DNA from: an uncultured Flavobacteriales bacterium
GTDB lineage: Bacteria; Bacteroidota; Bacteroidia; Flavobacteriales_E; Vicingaceae
Length of the DNA: 64,000 nucleotides
NCBI GenBank assembly: GCA_913056345.1
Contig: CAJXMH010000004.1
Location: 62,001 to 126,000 of the forward strand
Reading direction: 5' to 3'
This document shows, piece by piece, positions 21,373 to 62,550 of the stretch. Positions within the stretch are counted from its first letter, which is position 1; each line of letters begins with the position of its first letter. The notes beneath the pieces are model-generated. The model saw nothing but the letters and a program-made list of their open reading frames with translations. It searched no databases and was not told the DNA's origin. Made by a program: the position numbers and the translations under genes.

Positions 21373-22227
21373 TTAATAAAAAATCATCAAAATAAAGGCA
21401 GCTGAAAGACACAAAGATGAGATGATGTTCATGCGCATAGCTTTCTCATAGTTAGCTGCTTTAGGCTTTTTTTTGCAATCGATATACCACTTTTCGAAAT
21501 AGACCAAGGTGGGAATCCCACAACCCAAGAAAATCAAAATGTGTGATAGCGAAGCATGCAAATAATAATTGAACAACAGCAGTAAAGTGCCGAGCATAAA
21601 AAATATTCTAGAAAACCGGAAAGTCTTACTGATTCCCAATAATAAACTCAGGGTTATGTCTCCTCTCGCTTTGTCTTCTTGATGCTGGTATATTTGAGTT
21701 AAAGGATAAGAGCCAAGTAAAAAAATGCTGCTGCAAATAGCAGGCAAAAGGTGCTCTAATTTTAGAAAGGCATTAAGCTTTAAGCCCATTCCAATTTGAA
21801 CCATGAAAAAGGTGAAGAAACCTTGAAAAAAACAAACTACGAAGGTGCTTGTAATTGGATATTTTTTGAGTCTGATCTTATCAAAGCTATAAGCTTTTGA
21901 AACTAAAAGATATATAAAGATCAAAAGGGCGAAATACGGACTTATATAAAAGGCGTAAAGAACAGAGATTAGATCAAATAGTACGACCAGAGGAAAAAGT
22001 TTCTTATTCACCTTTGGGGGTGTTTTAAGGCCTCCTATGCTGCCTTCATCTTTGTCAAAGTAGGAGTTGTAGCCATTGCTTGCGGGGTAAACGAATAAGT
22101 GTAGAATTAAAAATATATGCAGACCTTTGAGAACATTCACTAAATCTAAATTGCTTAATGAGAACCAAAAGACAGGCATTAAGAAAATAGAAAAAGGAAT
22201 GCGTAATAGTTTTATAGCGTCTAGCAT
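21373..22227 (-). CDS. UbiA-family membrane prenyltransferase
   Basis: 284 residues with about eight hydrophobic helices. Two Asp-rich magnesium motifs are visible: NGYNSYFDKDEGS (first, a variant of N-D-x-x-D) and YQHQEDKARGDIT (second, D-x-x-x-G-D). UbiA enzymes move a prenyl or similar chain from a diphosphate to an aromatic or glycerol acceptor inside the membrane. Menaquinone or haem forms are usually in other surroundings; this copy is divergent from a type III polyketide synthase across 58 bases and could prenylate the polyketide product (inference). Possible alternative: another lipid-linked role independent of the cluster. Confidence 0.83.
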   Translation of the reverse strand: MLDAIKLLRIPFSIFLMPVFWFSLSNLDLVNVLKGLHIFLILHLFVYPASNGYNSYFDKDEGSIGGLKTPPKVNKKLFPLVVLFDLISVLYAFYISPYFALLIFIYLLVSKAYSFDKIRLKKYPITSTFVVCFFQGFFTFFMVQIGMGLKLNAFLKLEHLLPAICSSIFLLGSYPLTQIYQHQEDKARGDITLSLLLGISKTFRFSRIFFMLGTLLLLFNYYLHASLSHILIFLGCGIPTLVYFEKWYIDCKKKPKAANYEKAMRMNIISSLCLSAAFILMIFY

Positions 22228-22232
22228 GCACT

Positions 22233-22240
22233 TATGTTTG
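22233..22240 (+). promoter_or_regulatory. possible -7 element (TATGTTTG) for the type III PKS operon
   Basis: TATGTTTG fits TAnnTTTG and lies 45 bases before the TTG start at 22286, in the 58-base gap between divergent genes. No TTG stands at the -33 position. Weak support. Confidence 0.35.
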
Positions 22241-22285
22241 AAACGAAATTACAAAACCAAAGACCAAAGCATTAAACCATAGAAT

Positions 22286-23389
22286 TTGAGCAGTTACATC
22301 ACGCATTTAGGAATCGCAGTGCCACGGCATGAATATAAGCAAACTGCTTTAGCAAAATGGATGGCAGAACGTTATGATGCTGCTGATGAAAACCTAGCCA
22401 GAAAGCTAAAAGTACTTTACAAGAAAACAAGAATAGAAAAACGCTATTCAGTTTTAAGCGACTTTGAGCTTAATAAGCAGCAGGCAGCTCTTTTTATTGA
22501 AGATCAAGAAAAAGAGCCAAGCATTGAGGATCGAATGCAGATTTACGGCCAAGAAATTATACCGCTTTGTAGAAAGGCAATTTATAATGCTTTGGGAGAT
22601 GACTTCAACTACAAAGAAATTACGCACCTCATAACGGTCAGCTGCACAGGAATGTATGCTCCAGGTATAGAGTTAGAACTAAAGCAGTCAATCGGCTTGA
22701 ACGATCAGGTGCAAATGCATGCTGTAAACTTTGTTGGTTGTTACGCTTTCTTTCCAGCTTTAAAAATGGCAAAGGCTTTTTGCAGTGAACAAGCAAATAG
22801 CAAAGTTTTAATTGTGAGTGCAGAGCTTTGCACCTTGCACTTTCAAAATAAAATTGAAGAGGACCATTTGCTTTCAAATTCACTTTTTGCAGATGGAGCA
22901 GCAGCTTGTATAGTGCAAAATGAACCAGACGGAACCATTGCCGGAGAGGGCTCTTTAGAACTAAAGGCTCAAACCCAGCTGAGCATTCCCAAAGGAAGAA
23001 GTGACATGGCATGGAACATTCATTCTGATGGCTTTTTGATGCGCCTTACTTCTTATGTTCCTGAATTAGTGAATAGCGGAATTAAGCGATTAATAAACCA
23101 ATTGTTTGAGGAAGATGTAAAAGCTGAGCTCATTGATCAATGGGCCATTCATCCGGGGGGTAGAAAGATTCTTGAGGTTTGTGCAAAAGAACTTGATCTC
23201 ACAGAAAAGGACCTAGCTGCCTCTTACGAAGTTTTAAAAAATTACGGTAATCTTTCGGCTCCAACCATTCTTTTTGTGCTAAATGCCCTTAGCAAGCAAG
23301 CTATTGATGGGAAAAAAGTCTTGGCTTGTGGTTTTGGTCCAGGTTTAACCCTAGAAGGAGCCTTACTAAAATGGAAGGTAAATGCCTGA
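22286..23389 (+). CDS. type III polyketide synthase (chalcone/alkylresorcinol synthase family)
   Basis: 367 residues, the normal length. The catalytic triad is intact: Cys152 in NFVGCYAFFPAL, His289 in WAIHPGGRKILE and Asn322 in YGNLSAPTILFVL. TVSCTGMYAPGIE and FADGAAACIV are further thiolase-fold signatures. These enzymes extend an acyl-CoA starter with malonyl-CoA and cyclise it to alkylresorcinols, alkylpyrones or similar. The start is TTG at 22286: an in-frame TAG lies two codons upstream and the next Met is residue 26, too far in. It overlaps the methyltransferase by 8 bases. The starter is probably a fatty acyl chain (inference). Confidence 0.93.
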   Translation: MSSYITHLGIAVPRHEYKQTALAKWMAERYDAADENLARKLKVLYKKTRIEKRYSVLSDFELNKQQAALFIEDQEKEPSIEDRMQIYGQEIIPLCRKAIYNALGDDFNYKEITHLITVSCTGMYAPGIELELKQSIGLNDQVQMHAVNFVGCYAFFPALKMAKAFCSEQANSKVLIVSAELCTLHFQNKIEEDHLLSNSLFADGAAACIVQNEPDGTIAGEGSLELKAQTQLSIPKGRSDMAWNIHSDGFLMRLTSYVPELVNSGIKRLINQLFEEDVKAELIDQWAIHPGGRKILEVCAKELDLTEKDLAASYEVLKNYGNLSAPTILFVLNALSKQAIDGKKVLACGFGPGLTLEGALLKWKVNA

Positions 23390-24080
23390 TTTTACTAGCC
23401 GCTCAACCAAAGCAGAATACCTCGATCAACCAACTGTCAACAAGAAGGAACTATTTTTGAACTTGGCTGAGCTTGATCGCATTAATCAATTATTAGGAGG
23501 ACACACAGCTACTGTTAAAGGAGTTGAAAGATTGCTTGAAGATCGCTCTAAAGTTTATCACCTTGTTGATTTTGCCTGCGGTGGAGGCGATACCTTAAGG
23601 CACCTGGCACTTTGGTCTAAAAAATCAGGCTATCGTTTAAAATTATACGGCTTTGATATTTTACCCGAAGCCATTGAATATGCAAAGTCTAATTCCAAAG
23701 GATACGATATCAGCTATAAGGTTGCGGATTTCAATAACTACAGTCCTAGTCATCAAGTTGATATAGCATGTAATGCTTTGGTGTGTCATCATTTTTATGG
23801 CCATACTCTGGATAGTTTTTTATTGAAAATGAAAGAGCTTGCTGAAGTGGGGATTGTAATCAATGATTTGCACCGTCATCCTATGGCATATCAAAGCATT
23901 CAAGTTCTCACCCGATTCTTCTCAAAGTCACTTTATGTAAAGCATGATGCGCCTCTTTCGGTTCTAAAAGGCTTTTCTAAAAGTGAGTGGCAGCAAACCT
24001 TAGATCGACTAGGTTTTGAGCAGTATCATCTTGAATGGGTATGGGCTTTTCGCCACCTTATTTATTGGAGGAAACCATGA
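23382..24080 (+). CDS. class I SAM-dependent methyltransferase of the type III PKS operon
   Basis: 232 residues. SAM-binding motif I is LVDFACGGGDTLRHL (about residues 61-75), followed by LYGFDILPEAIEYAK (motif II) and DIACNALVCHHF. Its place between the polyketide synthase (8-base overlap) and the flavoprotein (4-base overlap) argues that it methylates the polyketide product on oxygen or carbon. The arrangement synthase, methyltransferase, flavoprotein matches the order of function in the Streptomyces srsABC phenolic-lipid operon. An SDR or ubiquinone-type methyltransferase role cannot be excluded from sequence alone. Confidence 0.85.
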   Translation: MPDFTSRSTKAEYLDQPTVNKKELFLNLAELDRINQLLGGHTATVKGVERLLEDRSKVYHLVDFACGGGDTLRHLALWSKKSGYRLKLYGFDILPEAIEYAKSNSKGYDISYKVADFNNYSPSHQVDIACNALVCHHFYGHTLDSFLLKMKELAEVGIVINDLHRHPMAYQSIQVLTRFFSKSLYVKHDAPLSVLKGFSKSEWQQTLDRLGFEQYHLEWVWAFRHLIYWRKP

Positions 24081-25219
24081 AAAAAGCATCGGTTGGTATA
24101 ATTGGTGGGGGCTTAGCAGGTTTAGCTACTGCAATAGAAATGGCTACGCCTGAATATGAGGTAATCCTCTGGGAAAAGAGGAGCTATCCTTTTCATAGGG
24201 TTTGTGGCGAATATATTTCAATGGAGTCTTGGTCTTATCTAAAGCACCTTGGTGTCCCTCTTGATGAGATGAACCTACCCATCATTGATCAGCTAAAATT
24301 AAGTGTACCTTCTGCTAATGAATTCAATCAACACTTGTCATTGGGAGGTTTTGGTATTAGCCGTTATACCATAGACCATGAACTTGCAAAAATTGCAAAG
24401 AAAAAAGGAGTTAGACTTTTAGAGAACTGCACGGTTAGAGAGGTTACTTTTCAAAACGATTCTCACCTAGTTAAAACTGATGAAGGAGATTTCCAAGTAG
24501 ACTTGCTTGTTGGAGCGCAAGGCAAGCGATCAAATATGGATAAAGCTTGGGAAAGAGCATTCATTCAGAAGCCACTTAAGGCCTCACAGAATTTTACTGC
24601 AGTTAAATATCACATTGAAGCAGACCTTCCTGAGGATTTGATTGGTTTACATTTATTTGAAGGCGGTTACTGTGGTATATCAAAAGTAGAAGGCGAGAAG
24701 ACCTATTGTATGTGTTACCTTACTTTGGCATCAAGTATTAAAACTGCAGGAGGCATAGCGGAATTAGAGGAGAAGGTGCTTAGTAAGAATCCTTACTTGA
24801 AGCAATACCTGAAACTACCGCGCTTGTATGAAAAAGCTGAGGTGATTTCTCAAGTTAATTTCAGTTCAAAATCGAAAGTAGAAGAGCATGCTTTCATGCT
24901 AGGGGATACAGCAGGCCTGATTGTTCCACTTTGTGGTAACGGCATGAGCATGGCATTTCATGCCGCTTACTTTTGGTCAAGGCTTGCTAAAGCCTACTTT
25001 AGGAAGGAAATAAGCAGAAAGGAACTTGAGACTGCCTATCGAAAAGAGTGGAAGAGATCATTTAATAAACGCCTGAAAATGGGTAAAATACTCCAGAGAC
25101 TTTTCTATAAACTTCATTGGACTGAACAGGCTATTAAGCTATTAAGCAAAAGTAAAAAACTGAGTAGTTTCCTGATTAAACAAACCCATGGTAAATCTTT
25201 TTACCATAGGTCAGATTGA
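24077..25219 (+). CDS. FAD-dependent oxidoreductase/hydroxylase of the type III PKS operon
   Basis: 380 residues from the ATG at 24077 (preceded by GGAGGA, one of the few Shine-Dalgarno-like sites here; the frame from 24035 is longer but overlaps the upstream gene by 46 bases). The dinucleotide motif GIIGGGLAGLATAIEM is at the N-terminus and the second FAD motif is HAFMLGDTAGLIVPLCGNGM. The fold is that of aromatic hydroxylases and geranylgeranyl reductases. By analogy with SrsC it may hydroxylate a resorcinol ring to a quinone precursor; a reductase of a prenyl chain is the alternative, given the neighbouring UbiA gene. Its C-terminal ~70 residues are basic (RLAKAYFRKEISRKEL). Confidence 0.87.
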   Translation: MKKASVGIIGGGLAGLATAIEMATPEYEVILWEKRSYPFHRVCGEYISMESWSYLKHLGVPLDEMNLPIIDQLKLSVPSANEFNQHLSLGGFGISRYTIDHELAKIAKKKGVRLLENCTVREVTFQNDSHLVKTDEGDFQVDLLVGAQGKRSNMDKAWERAFIQKPLKASQNFTAVKYHIEADLPEDLIGLHLFEGGYCGISKVEGEKTYCMCYLTLASSIKTAGGIAELEEKVLSKNPYLKQYLKLPRLYEKAEVISQVNFSSKSKVEEHAFMLGDTAGLIVPLCGNGMSMAFHAAYFWSRLAKAYFRKEISRKELETAYRKEWKRSFNKRLKMGKILQRLFYKLHWTEQAIKLLSKSKKLSSFLIKQTHGKSFYHRSD

Positions 25220-25243
25220 TTGAATGATCAAGTTGAGGTTTTC

Positions 25244-25741
25244 TTAATTGTGACTGTCTTTAATGACCTTATGTTCGATCTGATTTTCGTGTTTATGGTC
25301 TTTTTCGTGACCACGGCCTTTCTTGTGGATGTGCGTGCCATCTTTGCCATGCTCATGCTTATGACGAATCATCTTTGTTCTACTTTCTGATAGCATTTCG
25401 TTGAATTTCTCAACTTGATCAGGATTTAACAGCTCTCTGATTTGTGTTCTAAAATTTTGGTTTACTTCTCTTTCTTTTATTCGCTCATTCAATTTTTCCT
25501 GCTTCAGCTGTTCTTTGCTCTTTAGCGATGTGCTTTCTTCTTTCATCCTAATAGACTCAAGCTGAATTTTTCTTTCTTTCATCAAGTTTTTAAAAGAAGT
25601 TAACTGCTGCTCGCTTAGTTTCAGCTCCTCCTGCATCTGTTTTAATTTTGGAAAAGCATTCTCTGATTCAGTTTGGGCAAATGAAGCCATGCTTGAAAGC
25701 ATGAGACCTAAGCCAGCGATAATGGGAATTAATTTTTTCAT
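25244..25741 (-). CDS. Spy/CpxP-like periplasmic protein with His-rich tail
   Basis: 165 residues. Signal peptide MKKLIPIIAGLGLMLSSMASFAQ. The mature part is helical and charged (LKQMQEELKLSEQQLTSFKNLM, LLNPDQVEKFNEML), which recalls the LTxxQ repeats of Spy/CpxP chaperone-like proteins. The last ~40 residues are a histidine-rich tail (HKHEHGKDGTHIH, HEKDHKHENQ, then DSHN), fit to bind Zn, Cu, Ni or Co. Located in the periplasm. It ends 24 bases from the convergent flavoprotein gene. The function is inferred: metal storage, metal sensing or chaperone work. Confidence 0.75.
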   Translation of the reverse strand: MKKLIPIIAGLGLMLSSMASFAQTESENAFPKLKQMQEELKLSEQQLTSFKNLMKERKIQLESIRMKEESTSLKSKEQLKQEKLNERIKEREVNQNFRTQIRELLNPDQVEKFNEMLSESRTKMIRHKHEHGKDGTHIHKKGRGHEKDHKHENQIEHKVIKDSHN

Positions 25742-25787
25742 AGGATTTTTTTGTGTTGGTTAATTGTAGACCAAAAGTAATGCCAAT

Positions 25788-26612
25788 CTAATTCGTGATA
25801 AAGGTTTTGAATTGATTTAAGGTGTCTTGGTGCCACAATATTTTGTAGTGACCACTTCCATTAATGGGCACATATTTAAAATCTTTGTTTGCTTTTGCAA
25901 TATCCTCTGAATGGTTCACCTTGGTGATTTGATCCCCTGCATCGTGCATTAAAAGCACTTGCTTAAAAGGAGTTTTTTGGGCGAGCTTTTCAAAGTGAAG
26001 TCCCTCTAGCTGATAATTCGCTCTTTTGGAAACGATCTCGATCATCCTACTGTAAACAGAATCTTGAATACCAATCAACTCTTTAAATCCTTCAAAAACA
26101 GAAATGATGCGGTTAACAGGACTGATCAAAATACATTTAGTAATGCTAAGTTGAGCTTCATAGCATAGCAGCATAATCACATTGGCTCCCAACGAATGAC
26201 CAATTGCAATCTCAGGCTTCCCTTTCTCTTTGATCAACTCTTTGGCTAATTGAGTAAAGCTGATCAAGCTAGCCTCTTTACCTTCGCTACTTCCGTGTGC
26301 AGGACCATCACAAGCAATCACTGTATAGCCTTGCTTAAGCAAGGGTTCTACAAAGGCTCCAAGACTACCTGCATTGCTTTCCCATCCATGAAATAAATAG
26401 GCTAAGCGCTCTCCAGATCCCCATTGGTATAGTTTAAGCTGCTTACCTTGAAAATTAAAGCTTGAGGTATTGGCTTGTTTTAAGACTTGGATTTCCTTTT
26501 CACGGATAACCCTTGATCTTGGTGTGGAAAAGATTCGAATTAACAATTTAGCGGAATGCCTTGGGAAAAGTAAACCGATTGAATTGAAGTAAAATTTGAA
26601 TAGTTTGAGCAC
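25788..26612 (-). CDS. alpha/beta hydrolase
   Basis: 274 residues, no obvious signal peptide, though the start (LFKFYFNSIGLLF) is moderately hydrophobic. The catalytic triad is readable: Ser140 in GHSLGAN, Asp227 in DAGDQIT and His255 in GSGHYK; FHGWESNAG is the oxyanion turn. It may be a lysophospholipase- or esterase-like enzyme; the substrate is unknown. Located between the Spy-like gene and the ICMT-family methyltransferase, all on the minus strand, with a 34-base gap to the latter, so it could be co-transcribed with it under the MarR operator. Confidence 0.87.
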   Translation of the reverse strand: MLKLFKFYFNSIGLLFPRHSAKLLIRIFSTPRSRVIREKEIQVLKQANTSSFNFQGKQLKLYQWGSGERLAYLFHGWESNAGSLGAFVEPLLKQGYTVIACDGPAHGSSEGKEASLISFTQLAKELIKEKGKPEIAIGHSLGANVIMLLCYEAQLSITKCILISPVNRIISVFEGFKELIGIQDSVYSRMIEIVSKRANYQLEGLHFEKLAQKTPFKQVLLMHDAGDQITKVNHSEDIAKANKDFKYVPINGSGHYKILWHQDTLNQFKTFITN

Positions 26613-26646
26613 GTTGAATATTTACAGCTCAAAGTTGACCATTATC

Positions 26647-27072
26647 TTAATATATAAGTGGAAGAAGTCGGTGAGTTTTTTGACAGTATGCAGCATAGTT
26701 TGGAAAAGCCTTTTTAAGCAACTTCTCCTCGTAATTCAATTTGAAAATCAAGGTAATCAGCAATCCAAAGTAAGCTAAGGCACTGGCAACTGAATTAGTT
26801 ACAAAAGGCAAGAAATAAAGTAAAACTGCAGTGTACATTGGATGCCTTATTTTTTGGTATGGACCTTTGGAAACCACCTTCGCTCCTTTTCTTATTTCGG
26901 GGAAAATGTTCAATTTGGAATTGCGCATTACAGCTATGGCCCAAATGCCTAAAGCAAAGCCCAAAGCATGTAATAAAACGTCGAAACCGCCCTTGTTAAG
27001 CCATCCATCCCTCCACAAGATGAATGCAATTAGACCAAATTGCAAGGAGATGTAAAGCAAGCCTTTCTTCAT
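26647..27072 (-). CDS. ICMT/PEMT-family membrane methyltransferase
   Basis: 141 residues with about four transmembrane helices (LLYISLQFGLIAFILW, LLHALGFALGIWAIAV, TAVLLYFLPFV, ALAYFGLLITLIFKL). The SAM-binding motif GPYQKIRHPMYT (the R-H-P of the family) and NYEEKLLKKAFPNYAAYCQKT (E-E-x-x-L...Y-x-x-Y) place it with isoprenylcysteine carboxyl methyltransferases and phospholipid N-methyltransferases. In Bacillus, the relative BpsB methylates alkylpyrones made by the type III PKS BpsA, so this gene 1.4 kb from the PKS operon may take part in the same product. It is divergent from marR, with overlapping promoters and a palindrome between them. Confidence 0.88.
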   Translation of the reverse strand: MKKGLLYISLQFGLIAFILWRDGWLNKGGFDVLLHALGFALGIWAIAVMRNSKLNIFPEIRKGAKVVSKGPYQKIRHPMYTAVLLYFLPFVTNSVASALAYFGLLITLIFKLNYEEKLLKKAFPNYAAYCQKTHRLLPLIY

Positions 27073-27111
27073 ATGGATAATATAAGTCTTTTAGACAGAT
27101 TAATTAGGAAG

Positions 27112-27129
27112 TATATGTAGCTACAAATA
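27112..27129. promoter_or_regulatory. candidate MarR operator, imperfect 18-bp palindrome
   Basis: TGTAGCTACA (27116-27125) is a perfect 10-bp palindrome; extending it, 8 of 9 positions per arm match (TATATGTAG | CTACAAATA). It lies between divergent ICMT and marR genes and overlaps the -7 elements of both. Size and position fit a MarR dimer. Confidence 0.6.
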
Positions 27130-27131
27130 TA
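27124..27131 (-). promoter_or_regulatory. minus-strand -7 element (TATATTTG) for the ICMT gene
   Basis: CAAATATA on the plus strand reads TATATTTG on the minus strand, 51 bases before the ICMT start at 27072. It overlaps the plus-strand -7 element: together CAAATATATTTG (27124-27135) is a perfect 12-bp palindrome. Confidence 0.5.
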
Positions 27132-27135
27132 TTTG
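27128..27135 (+). promoter_or_regulatory. plus-strand -7 element (TATATTTG) for marR
   Basis: TATATTTG fits TAnnTTTG and ends 15 bases before the marR ATG at 27151. It directly abuts the TGTAGCTACA palindrome, as expected for an autoregulated regulator. Confidence 0.6.
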
Positions 27136-27150
27136 CACTTTAAATAAGCT

Positions 27151-27600
27151 ATGCGCATAGAAGATGAAATAAAGCAAAAGCAGTTTGAAGATGAGATCCA
27201 AAAACTCATGATCAACCAAATGTTTACAGGAAAGTGGGTGAGCGATCTAATTGCGAAGCACCTCAAGCCATATGGGTTAACCAATCAACAATATAATGTG
27301 CTAAGAATTTTGAGGGGTCAGGGTAATGGTTTTGTCTCCGTCAACTCCATTTCCGAAAGGATGATTGATAAAATGTCGAATGTCTCTCGCTTGATCGATA
27401 AACTTTGCCTCAAAGGCTTGGCTACTAGGACGGTGAATCATCAAGATCGAAGGCAGATGGATATTAAAATAACGGAAGAGGGCTTAAAACTGCTGAAAGA
27501 ATTAGATTACATACAAAAGCAGATAAAAGCAGAGTTTAGCAATATTTCTGAAGCTGAAGCAAGACAATTAAATGAATTATTAGATAAACTAAGAGGATAA
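27151..27600 (+). CDS. MarR-family transcriptional regulator
   Basis: 149 residues, with a winged-helix core: KPYGLTNQQYNVLRIL, VNSISERMIDKMSNVSRLIDKLCLKGL (recognition helix) and RTVNHQDRRQMDIKITEEGLKLL (the wing with the conserved D-R-R). Flanking helices give the dimer. MarR proteins bind small phenolic or quinone-like ligands and lose DNA affinity. It overlaps its downstream partner, a nitroreductase, as TAATG. The palindrome in the divergent promoter region suggests it represses itself, the nitroreductase and the ICMT-family gene (inference). Confidence 0.93.
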   Translation: MRIEDEIKQKQFEDEIQKLMINQMFTGKWVSDLIAKHLKPYGLTNQQYNVLRILRGQGNGFVSVNSISERMIDKMSNVSRLIDKLCLKGLATRTVNHQDRRQMDIKITEEGLKLLKELDYIQKQIKAEFSNISEAEARQLNELLDKLRG

Positions 27601-28163
27601 TGAAGGTAAAAGAAGCAATAGAGAAACGTTGGAGTCCAAGAGCATTTTCAAATCAAATGATCGAAAAGCAAACCCTAAAGAATTTACTTCAAGAAGCTGG
27701 TAGTGCAGCCAGTTGTTTTAATGAACAGCCATGGCATTTTATAGTAGGAGTAAAAGGCACAGAAACCTATCAAAAAATATACGATACATTAGTTTCTTTT
27801 AACCAGGATTGGGCTAAGACAGCACCCGTATTAATGTTAGCAGTATCAGTTAATGAGTTTAGTAAAAATGCTAAACCCAATCCACACCATCGTTATGACT
27901 TGGGCCAATCAGTTGGCTTTTTAAGTTTGAGGGCCATGGAGGAAAATATTTACTTACATCAAATGGCAGGATTTGATGCTGACTTGGCAAAGGAAAAATT
28001 CAAGATGGCTGATCAAGCAGAAGCGGTTGCAGCTATTGCTTTGGGGCATTTAGGAGATTCCAATCAATTAAACGATGATTTAAAGGAGCAGGAAAGTCCG
28101 GAAAGTCCCAGAAAACCTTTGGAAGATTTTGTCTTTGAAGGGGAGTGGGGAAAAGCTTTTTGA
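27600..28163 (+). CDS. nitroreductase-family FMN oxidoreductase
   Basis: 187 residues. EKRWSPRAFSNQMI is the FMN-phosphate contact segment (R-S/W-x-R), AGSAASCFNEQPWHFIVG the N-E-Q-P-W motif, and AVAAIALGHLGD the C-terminal glycine loop. Members transfer two electrons from NAD(P)H to nitro-aromatics, quinones or enones; often they protect against quinone stress. Translational coupling (TAATG) to marR points to inducible expression with a phenolic or quinone ligand, which would suit the nearby polyketide cluster. Substrate unknown. Confidence 0.92.
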   Translation: MKVKEAIEKRWSPRAFSNQMIEKQTLKNLLQEAGSAASCFNEQPWHFIVGVKGTETYQKIYDTLVSFNQDWAKTAPVLMLAVSVNEFSKNAKPNPHHRYDLGQSVGFLSLRAMEENIYLHQMAGFDADLAKEKFKMADQAEAVAAIALGHLGDSNQLNDDLKEQESPESPRKPLEDFVFEGEWGKAF

Positions 28164-61853: not shown

Positions 61854-62550
61854 CTCGCAAATGTAAGGTATGTGTAGCAACTATAGCGGCAGTTTCAGTG
61901 CGTAGTCTGCTTGTACTTAAGCTGACAGGCTTGATTCCTGTAGCTATGGCTTGTTTGACCTCTTGCTCTGAAAAATCTCCTTCAGGACCAATCAAAATAA
62001 TGGCATCTTGAACGTTTTGAGCAGCTTTGATCAGCGGGAGTTTATCTGCATCCTCATAACAATGGGCAATAAATTTAGCAGCACTTTTGTTTTGCTCAAT
62101 AAAGGCTGAAAAGGGTACCATTTCATCTAAATCCGGAAAAAGTAGCTTTCTCGATTGTTTGGCAGCGCTTTTAATGATCCGCAGTTGCCTTTCGATCTTC
62201 AAATTTTTTCGTTCTGAATTGTCGCAAAGGATGGGACTAATTCGGTCTATGCCAATTTCAGTTGCCTTTTCTAAAAAAGTTTCCCACCGGCTAAGGTTCT
62301 TGGTTGGGGCAACGACCAAATGGATTCCAAAACGTTTGTCTTCTTTTTGGACCAGTTTAAGATCAGTCAGTTTTACTGCTTTGGGTGAAGCCTCTTTTAC
62401 TCTTGCTATGAAAAGCTTTCCATTACCGTCAAAAACTTCTACTTCATCGCCCTCTTTTAGACGCAGTACTTTGGCTAGGTGACGTGATTCATCAGGGTCT
62501 AAAACCGCTTCAGTATCACTTAAATTATTGGAATAAAACCGATGCATCAA
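61846..62550 (-). CDS. rsmE: 16S rRNA m3U1498 methyltransferase RsmE
   Basis: 234 residues. HRFYSNNLSDTEAVLDPDESRHLAKVLRLKEGDEVEVFDG is the N-terminal PUA-like domain; then KNLSRWETFLEKATEIGIDRISPI, SERKNL and the SPOUT-knot end ILIGPEGDFSEQEV and SLSTSRLRTETAAIVA. It methylates N3 of U1498 in 16S rRNA. Either of the first two Met codons could begin the chain. It heads the rsmE-DUF4159-THUMP-like operon on the minus strand. Confidence 0.94.
   Translation of the reverse strand: MMHRFYSNNLSDTEAVLDPDESRHLAKVLRLKEGDEVEVFDGNGKLFIARVKEASPKAVKLTDLKLVQKEDKRFGIHLVVAPTKNLSRWETFLEKATEIGIDRISPILCDNSERKNLKIERQLRIIKSAAKQSRKLLFPDLDEMVPFSAFIEQNKSAAKFIAHCYEDADKLPLIKAAQNVQDAIILIGPEGDFSEQEVKQAIATGIKPVSLSTSRLRTETAAIVATHTLHLRDE

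Follow-up and report, generated by a model that had tools for sequence, protein, structure and literature searches.

The 64,000-nucleotide stretch analyzed here (hereafter the window; positions 62,001 to 126,000 of contig CAJXMH010000004.1, assembly GCA_913056345.1, from an uncultured Flavobacteriales bacterium with a genome of 2.9 Mb, G000) carries genes for a UbiA-family membrane enzyme, a type III polyketide synthase (PKS), a class I S-adenosylmethionine (SAM) methyltransferase (MT) and a flavin adenine dinucleotide (FAD)-dependent oxidoreductase, which together are called the cassette below (Table 1). A preliminary description of this DNA had placed the four genes, together with nearby ICMT and MarR genes, in one pathway to a prenylated or methylated phenolic lipid or quinone. 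All gene families that it stated are upheld by Pfam, and the gene calls match the gene order, the 58-bp divergence and the overlaps of 8 and 4 bases that it gave. The PKS active site is likewise intact, with Cys152, His289 and Asn322 invariant in an alignment of 17 PKS homologues. Uncultured Flavobacteriales metagenome-assembled genomes (MAGs) show the same synteny (L056, L057, L061; labels beginning with L, G and f denote loci, genomes and family codes).

Table 1. Genes and intergenic region of the cassette and its downstream neighbors in the window.
Feature	Positions	Strand	Basis
UbiA-family membrane enzyme, type III PKS-associated subfamily, 284 aa	21373-22227	-	PF01040, motifs, AlphaFold2 (AF2) fold, PKS co-occurrence
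Divergent UbiA/PKS intergenic region, 58 bp, presumed shared promoter region	22228-22285	.	Sequence
Type III polyketide synthase, TTG start, Cys152-His289-Asn322	22286-23389	+	PF00195/PF02797 above cut-off, homologue alignment, tree
Class I SAM methyltransferase (MT), 8-base overlap with PKS	23382-24080	+	Methyltransf_25/11; PRK06202-like; conserved in cluster
FAD-dependent oxidoreductase, probable ring hydroxylase, ATG at 24077, 4-base overlap with MT	24077-25219	+	Profiles, alignment, AF2 model
ICMT/PEMT-family methyltransferase, 1427 bp beyond FAD gene	26647-27072	-	Pfam
MarR	27151-27600	+	Pfam
Nitroreductase	27600-28163	+	Pfam

We counted UbiA and PKS genes in 100 relatives, where a true PKS homologue was defined by E ≤ 1e-68, and in a phylum sample of 395 genomes, where a strong UbiA match was defined by E < 1e-75; E-values were computed per genome, and some genomes are incomplete MAGs. 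Every relative with a close PKS (15/15) also carries a cassette-type UbiA, 14 of them in the cluster and one on another contig. A UbiA match is present in only 6 of the 85 relatives without a close PKS (Fisher p = 2e-13; this test, here and below, assumes independent genomes, an assumption that relatedness violates). These six comprise one genome with an intact gene (G021), three with remnants (G026, G030 and G036) and two with distant homologues that have lost motif 1 (G055 and G082). Across the phylum sample, all 26 genomes with a strong UbiA match have a PKS, adjacent in 20 of them, compared with 179 of 395 genomes overall (p = 4e-10). From these counts, the UbiA-PKS-MT-FAD arrangement is far beyond chance, and UbiA belongs with the PKS, as the preliminary description had claimed. 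That description had named a lack of UbiA-PKS co-occurrence in related genomes as grounds for rejecting its proposal, and the counts show the opposite. We put at roughly 60% the probability that the four genes form one unit, a pathway to a phenolic lipid or quinone resembling the srs, pkq and hid systems discussed below, with a dedicated UbiA prenylation step.

Related contig loci were retrieved with the UbiA alignment; the window PKS alone as query gave no match. Clusters of PKS, MT, FAD and UbiA genes are found at L031-L041, L043, L044, L072, L108, L118 and L133, with the FAD gene interrupted by a contig end in L032, L038 and L072 and replaced by another flavoenzyme in L039. UbiA runs in the same direction as the PKS at L034, L036, L038-L041, L043 and L044, where it lies next to the cluster or inside it and often overlaps or abuts it (the L044 gene has one apparent frameshift). 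Four-gene clusters with a co-directional UbiA, recurring in many families, argue against an alternative in which PKS, MT and FAD constitute an ordinary methylated alkyl-quinone pathway of the srs/pkq/hid type, while UbiA serves a separate, co-selected pathway (for example to another membrane isoprenoid) or is a mere neighbor. The Hymenobacteraceae-like family f52 bears on both sides of this question. UbiA there is far from FAD-PKS-MT, in keeping with a separate role, yet the two are retained together while unlinked, with PKS in 150/150 genomes and UbiA in 148/150. Pontibacter, Hymenobacter, Rufibacter and Adhaeribacter have an unlinked layout like that of f52, and 45 of the 47 UbiA genomes searched carry a PKS. 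An uncharacterised methyltransferase-like gene adjoins the unlinked UbiA in Hymenobacteraceae (L055:6980-7792, L075:7122-7910, L177:8123-9034).

The distribution of UbiA also coincides with a division within the PKS tree. In a tree of 55 rows, made by a quick method and with long reference branches, a single branch (one change, SH-aLRT 92) sets all 25 PKSs of UbiA-bearing genomes apart. On its other side lie 23 PKSs of UbiA-less genomes and all five references, the Protein Data Bank (PDB) entries PKS18, PKS11, THNS, Steely1 and 7ffc. A second ground for rejection given in the preliminary description, a PKS nested in a group with a known different product, was examined against these five references, none of which falls within the clade. 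The UbiA step follows this one PKS clade over about 18 family codes, a correspondence that counts against a separate pathway for UbiA. Distance matrices for UbiA and PKS agree as well (Mantel r 0.65 for 22 genomes; 0/10000 permutations), although this agreement also mirrors the common descent of the hosts.

Natural deletions provide a further view of the association. In four relatives (L165-L168), PKS and MT have been lost from the interval bounded by the L,D-transpeptidase gene on one side and MarR-BCAT on the other, and in three of these UbiA is truncated or reduced: UbiA codons 1-104 are missing in L166, a single deletion extends from inside UbiA into FAD in L167, and only UbiA codons 233-284 are left in L168. 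Genome G075, which also holds an intact cassette (L043), contains a decayed second copy (L172:2869-12182) in which PKS, FAD and a UbiA located 6 kb off are all broken. Finding UbiA as remnants where the PKS has been lost is again at odds with a separate UbiA pathway. A putatively tail-adding UbiA that is almost never kept without its cassette partners looks like the sign of a widespread, uncharacterised quinone-like membrane molecule.

The UbiA protein scores 64 bits against PF01040, above the cut-off, and its AF2 model (predicted local distance difference test score 93) has DGGGP synthase, UBIAD1 and AfUbiA as its best PDB matches. By family profile and fold it is a member of the UbiA superfamily and a candidate prenyltransferase. 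The preliminary description had credited it with both Asp-rich motifs, of which the first is present and the second is altered. Motif 1 takes the variant form N54xxxD58xD60 (NGYN54SYFD58KD60EGSIGGLKTPP) rather than the canonical NDxxDxxxD. In motif 2, YPLTQIYQ181HQED185 (Q181-H-x-E-D185), all aligned cassette UbiA proteins have Gln where the canonical DxxxD begins with Asp. The subfamily conserves NGYNSYxDxDE..IGGLxxPP and YPLTQIYQHxxD. Given a QHxxD second motif in all members, and fold matches that include the membrane phosphoribosyltransferase 8j8k/8j8j, the enzyme might instead catalyze another reaction on the polyketide or on a lipid anchor, such as terpene cyclisation or a non-prenyl transfer. 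However, the enzyme retains motif 1 as well as D185, and its nearest folds belong to prenyltransferases or prenyl-diphosphate binders. We consider a non-prenyl reaction improbable and a prenylated product plausible. Five further UbiA-family matches occur in the host genome, one of them below the Pfam cut-off, and the other host proteins of this family include heme O synthase as well as a UbiA-like polyprenyltransferase that exceeds the TIGR01475 cut-off. Thus, the cassette UbiA is not the sole such enzyme in its host.

Several observations weigh against a single four-gene unit with a prenylation step. UbiA is intact beside MarR at L165:6618-7607 (G021), a locus that has lost PKS, MT and FAD in a genome where no PKS was found at all, which reflects either recent gene loss or a function of UbiA on its own. 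Neighboring genes can fall in one deletion, so that L166-L168 give weaker support than is apparent. The joint presence of PKS and UbiA varies little among f52 genomes, and a complete genome of this family, G540, carries the PKS but no UbiA. Family f66, from another class (n = 92), has PKS in 85 genomes and a UbiA of ∼30% identity in 70, with many PKS-bearing genomes lacking UbiA; one f66 genome, G710, has a related UbiA and is PKS-less. Neither a prenyl diphosphate synthase gene nor an acyl-activating gene is a recurrent member of the cluster, and the replacement of the first Asp by Q181 means that prenyl transfer by UbiA is not certain. The atypical Q181 motif and the intact UbiA of L165 would also fit a separate pathway for UbiA, as would the PKS-MT-FAD trios without UbiA in the same phylum (L045, L046, L181, L182 and L184). 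Weighed with the linkage, co-retention, clade and remnants described above, a separate UbiA pathway is unlikely in our judgment, and we favor the four-gene unit. The UbiA proteins of f66 (L173, L174, L175) keep the motifs NSYWDKDEGPIGGLKxPP and Q-x-x-E-D, and their genes are unlinked to the PKS.

The FAD enzyme is probably a ring hydroxylase, as judged from an AF2 model that is nearest to 3-hydroxybenzoate 6-hydroxylase. Its slot is filled by an aromatic hydroxylase with FAD_binding_3/Rng_hyd_C domains in L039 and by a FAD_binding_3 enzyme in L180. Since the enzyme is present in UbiA-less trios (L045, L046, L181 and L182), its probable substrate is the polyketide core or ring and not a prenyl chain. 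Two other assignments were rejected. Although halogenases are the best PDB sequence matches, the WxWxIP motif expected for an FADH2-dependent halogenase is found in no member (a GYCGISKVE-like sequence is present), and a geranylgeranyl/prenyl reductase is disfavored both by a TIGR02032 score of 81.3 bits, against a cut-off of 158.8, and by occurrence in trios lacking UbiA.

Some of the UbiA-less trios, which belong to other families (L181:5600-7770, L182:4542-7521, L045:6652-9419), adjoin genes for a ketoacyl synthase and a FabA-like dehydratase, both Pfam-checked, with an 85-amino-acid open reading frame (possibly an acyl carrier protein) and a phosphopantetheinyl transferase-like gene nearby; perhaps these genes form a starter-chain supply module. 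Genes for proteins of the YceI family, some members of which bind isoprenoids, adjoin the cassette at three loci (L035, L036, L043) and the UbiA-less trio at L182.

In the pathway that we propose as the most economical, the PKS would elongate an acyl starter using malonyl units. The resulting phenolic lipid, of resorcinol (or pyrone) type, would be methylated by the class I MT, and the FAD enzyme would hydroxylate its ring to yield a hydroquinone or quinone. UbiA would attach an isoprenoid chain in the membrane, creating a prenylated, methylated quinone-like lipid that might function as an electron carrier, an antioxidant or a membrane lipid. We infer the order of these steps, as well as the acyl starter, a resorcinol over a pyrone, the donor and length of the prenyl chain and the quinone state of the product. 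Trp243 is invariant in 22 cassette PKSs, and the logic built on W281 of ArsB (PMC6274091) would take this residue as proof of resorcinol cyclisation. That argument was dropped, because Trp is also found in the pyrone synthase PKS11 and in Steely1 and hence is not diagnostic of a long-chain alkylresorcinol; CylI has Leu at the equivalent position.

The preliminary description had gone further, adding O-methylation by the ICMT, after the model of Bacillus BpsA-BpsB, and sensing by MarR to the same system. The window does resemble BpsA-BpsB in that an ICMT-type methyltransferase gene lies near a type III PKS gene, and L033, like the window, has both ICMT and MarR close to its cassette. These are, however, the only two loci with an ICMT beside the cassette. 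The gene is absent from L031, where the cassette is present, and from L165 and L166, whereas it persists in L167 alongside a broken cassette, and as a fragment in L168. Cassette loci of families other than f1 yielded no ICMT homologue, and MarR in L035 only. Thus, unlike in BpsA-BpsB, the ICMT is not a conserved partner of the PKS in the loci compared. MarR adjoins BCAT in all four deletion loci, where it has been retained without a PKS, and so is a resident chromosomal neighbor. On the evidence of the deletion loci, ICMT and MarR were rejected as cassette parts, and the full scheme with both is highly improbable. The abutting MarR and nitroreductase genes, which share base 27600, are likely a small operon separate from the cassette.

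The three-gene core is already known. Operons of the srs and pkq type, with a type III PKS, a methyltransferase and a FAD oxidoreductase, give an alkyl (benzo)quinone (PMC9927152), and PKSs of Planctomycetota PKS-MT-oxidoreductase operons make 5-pentadecyl- or heptadecylresorcinol (PMC10896814). For srs/PkQ and hid, the logic of this gene set is well grounded (PMC9927152, PMC10896814). The window follows the same plan, with a triad-bearing PKS and a class I MT and FAD oxidoreductase in overlapping reading frames, and the srsABC-like core claimed in the preliminary description is borne out, including a hydroxylase fold for the flavoprotein. The three genes share a putative operon, as they do in Streptomyces griseus (srsABC) and in Mycobacterium and Streptomyces (pkqABC, for polyketide quinone); those systems, compared here by their descriptions, are three-gene operons without a prenyltransferase, to which the cassette adds UbiA. 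The hidABC hierridin clusters and the Planctomycetota operons also contain these three enzyme kinds, with no UbiA reported. The operon of 'S. ferox' includes a gene for a lipid/isoprenoid-binding protein, reminiscent of the YceI genes beside some cassettes (PMC10896814). One cyanobacterial hid-like cluster, in Raphidiopsis, has a prenyltransferase and was interpreted as the outcome of one transfer (PMC8086630).

The Raphidiopsis cluster is the only comparable report found in the literature searched. No report of UbiA with a type III PKS in Bacteroidota was found in that literature, which mostly excludes subscription journals and so gives weak evidence of novelty, nor was a characterised product of any Bacteroidota type III PKS. 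A dedicated, clade-wide UbiA step is undescribed in the literature searched. In the cannabinoid pathway of plants, a type III PKS phenol is prenylated by a UbiA-superfamily enzyme and then processed by a flavoenzyme. The logic is similar, with no relation implied, and here an MT and a hydroxylase replace the cyclase and oxidocyclase.

Type III PKSs are abundant in Bacteroidota, as seen in the phylum sample, and the cassette occurs in many marine and soil members. From a UbiA step that tracks one PKS clade, we would expect a specific class of new metabolites, namely hybrid lipids of polyketide and isoprenoid origin. Bacteroidota are thought to rely on menaquinone, and it is conceivable, if somewhat doubtful, that many of their families make a second, polyketide-derived isoprenoid quinone for respiration or membrane redox protection by means of the Gln-for-Asp UbiA. 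If the product is redox-active, it would provide an extra quinone for a phylum considered to be menaquinone-reliant.

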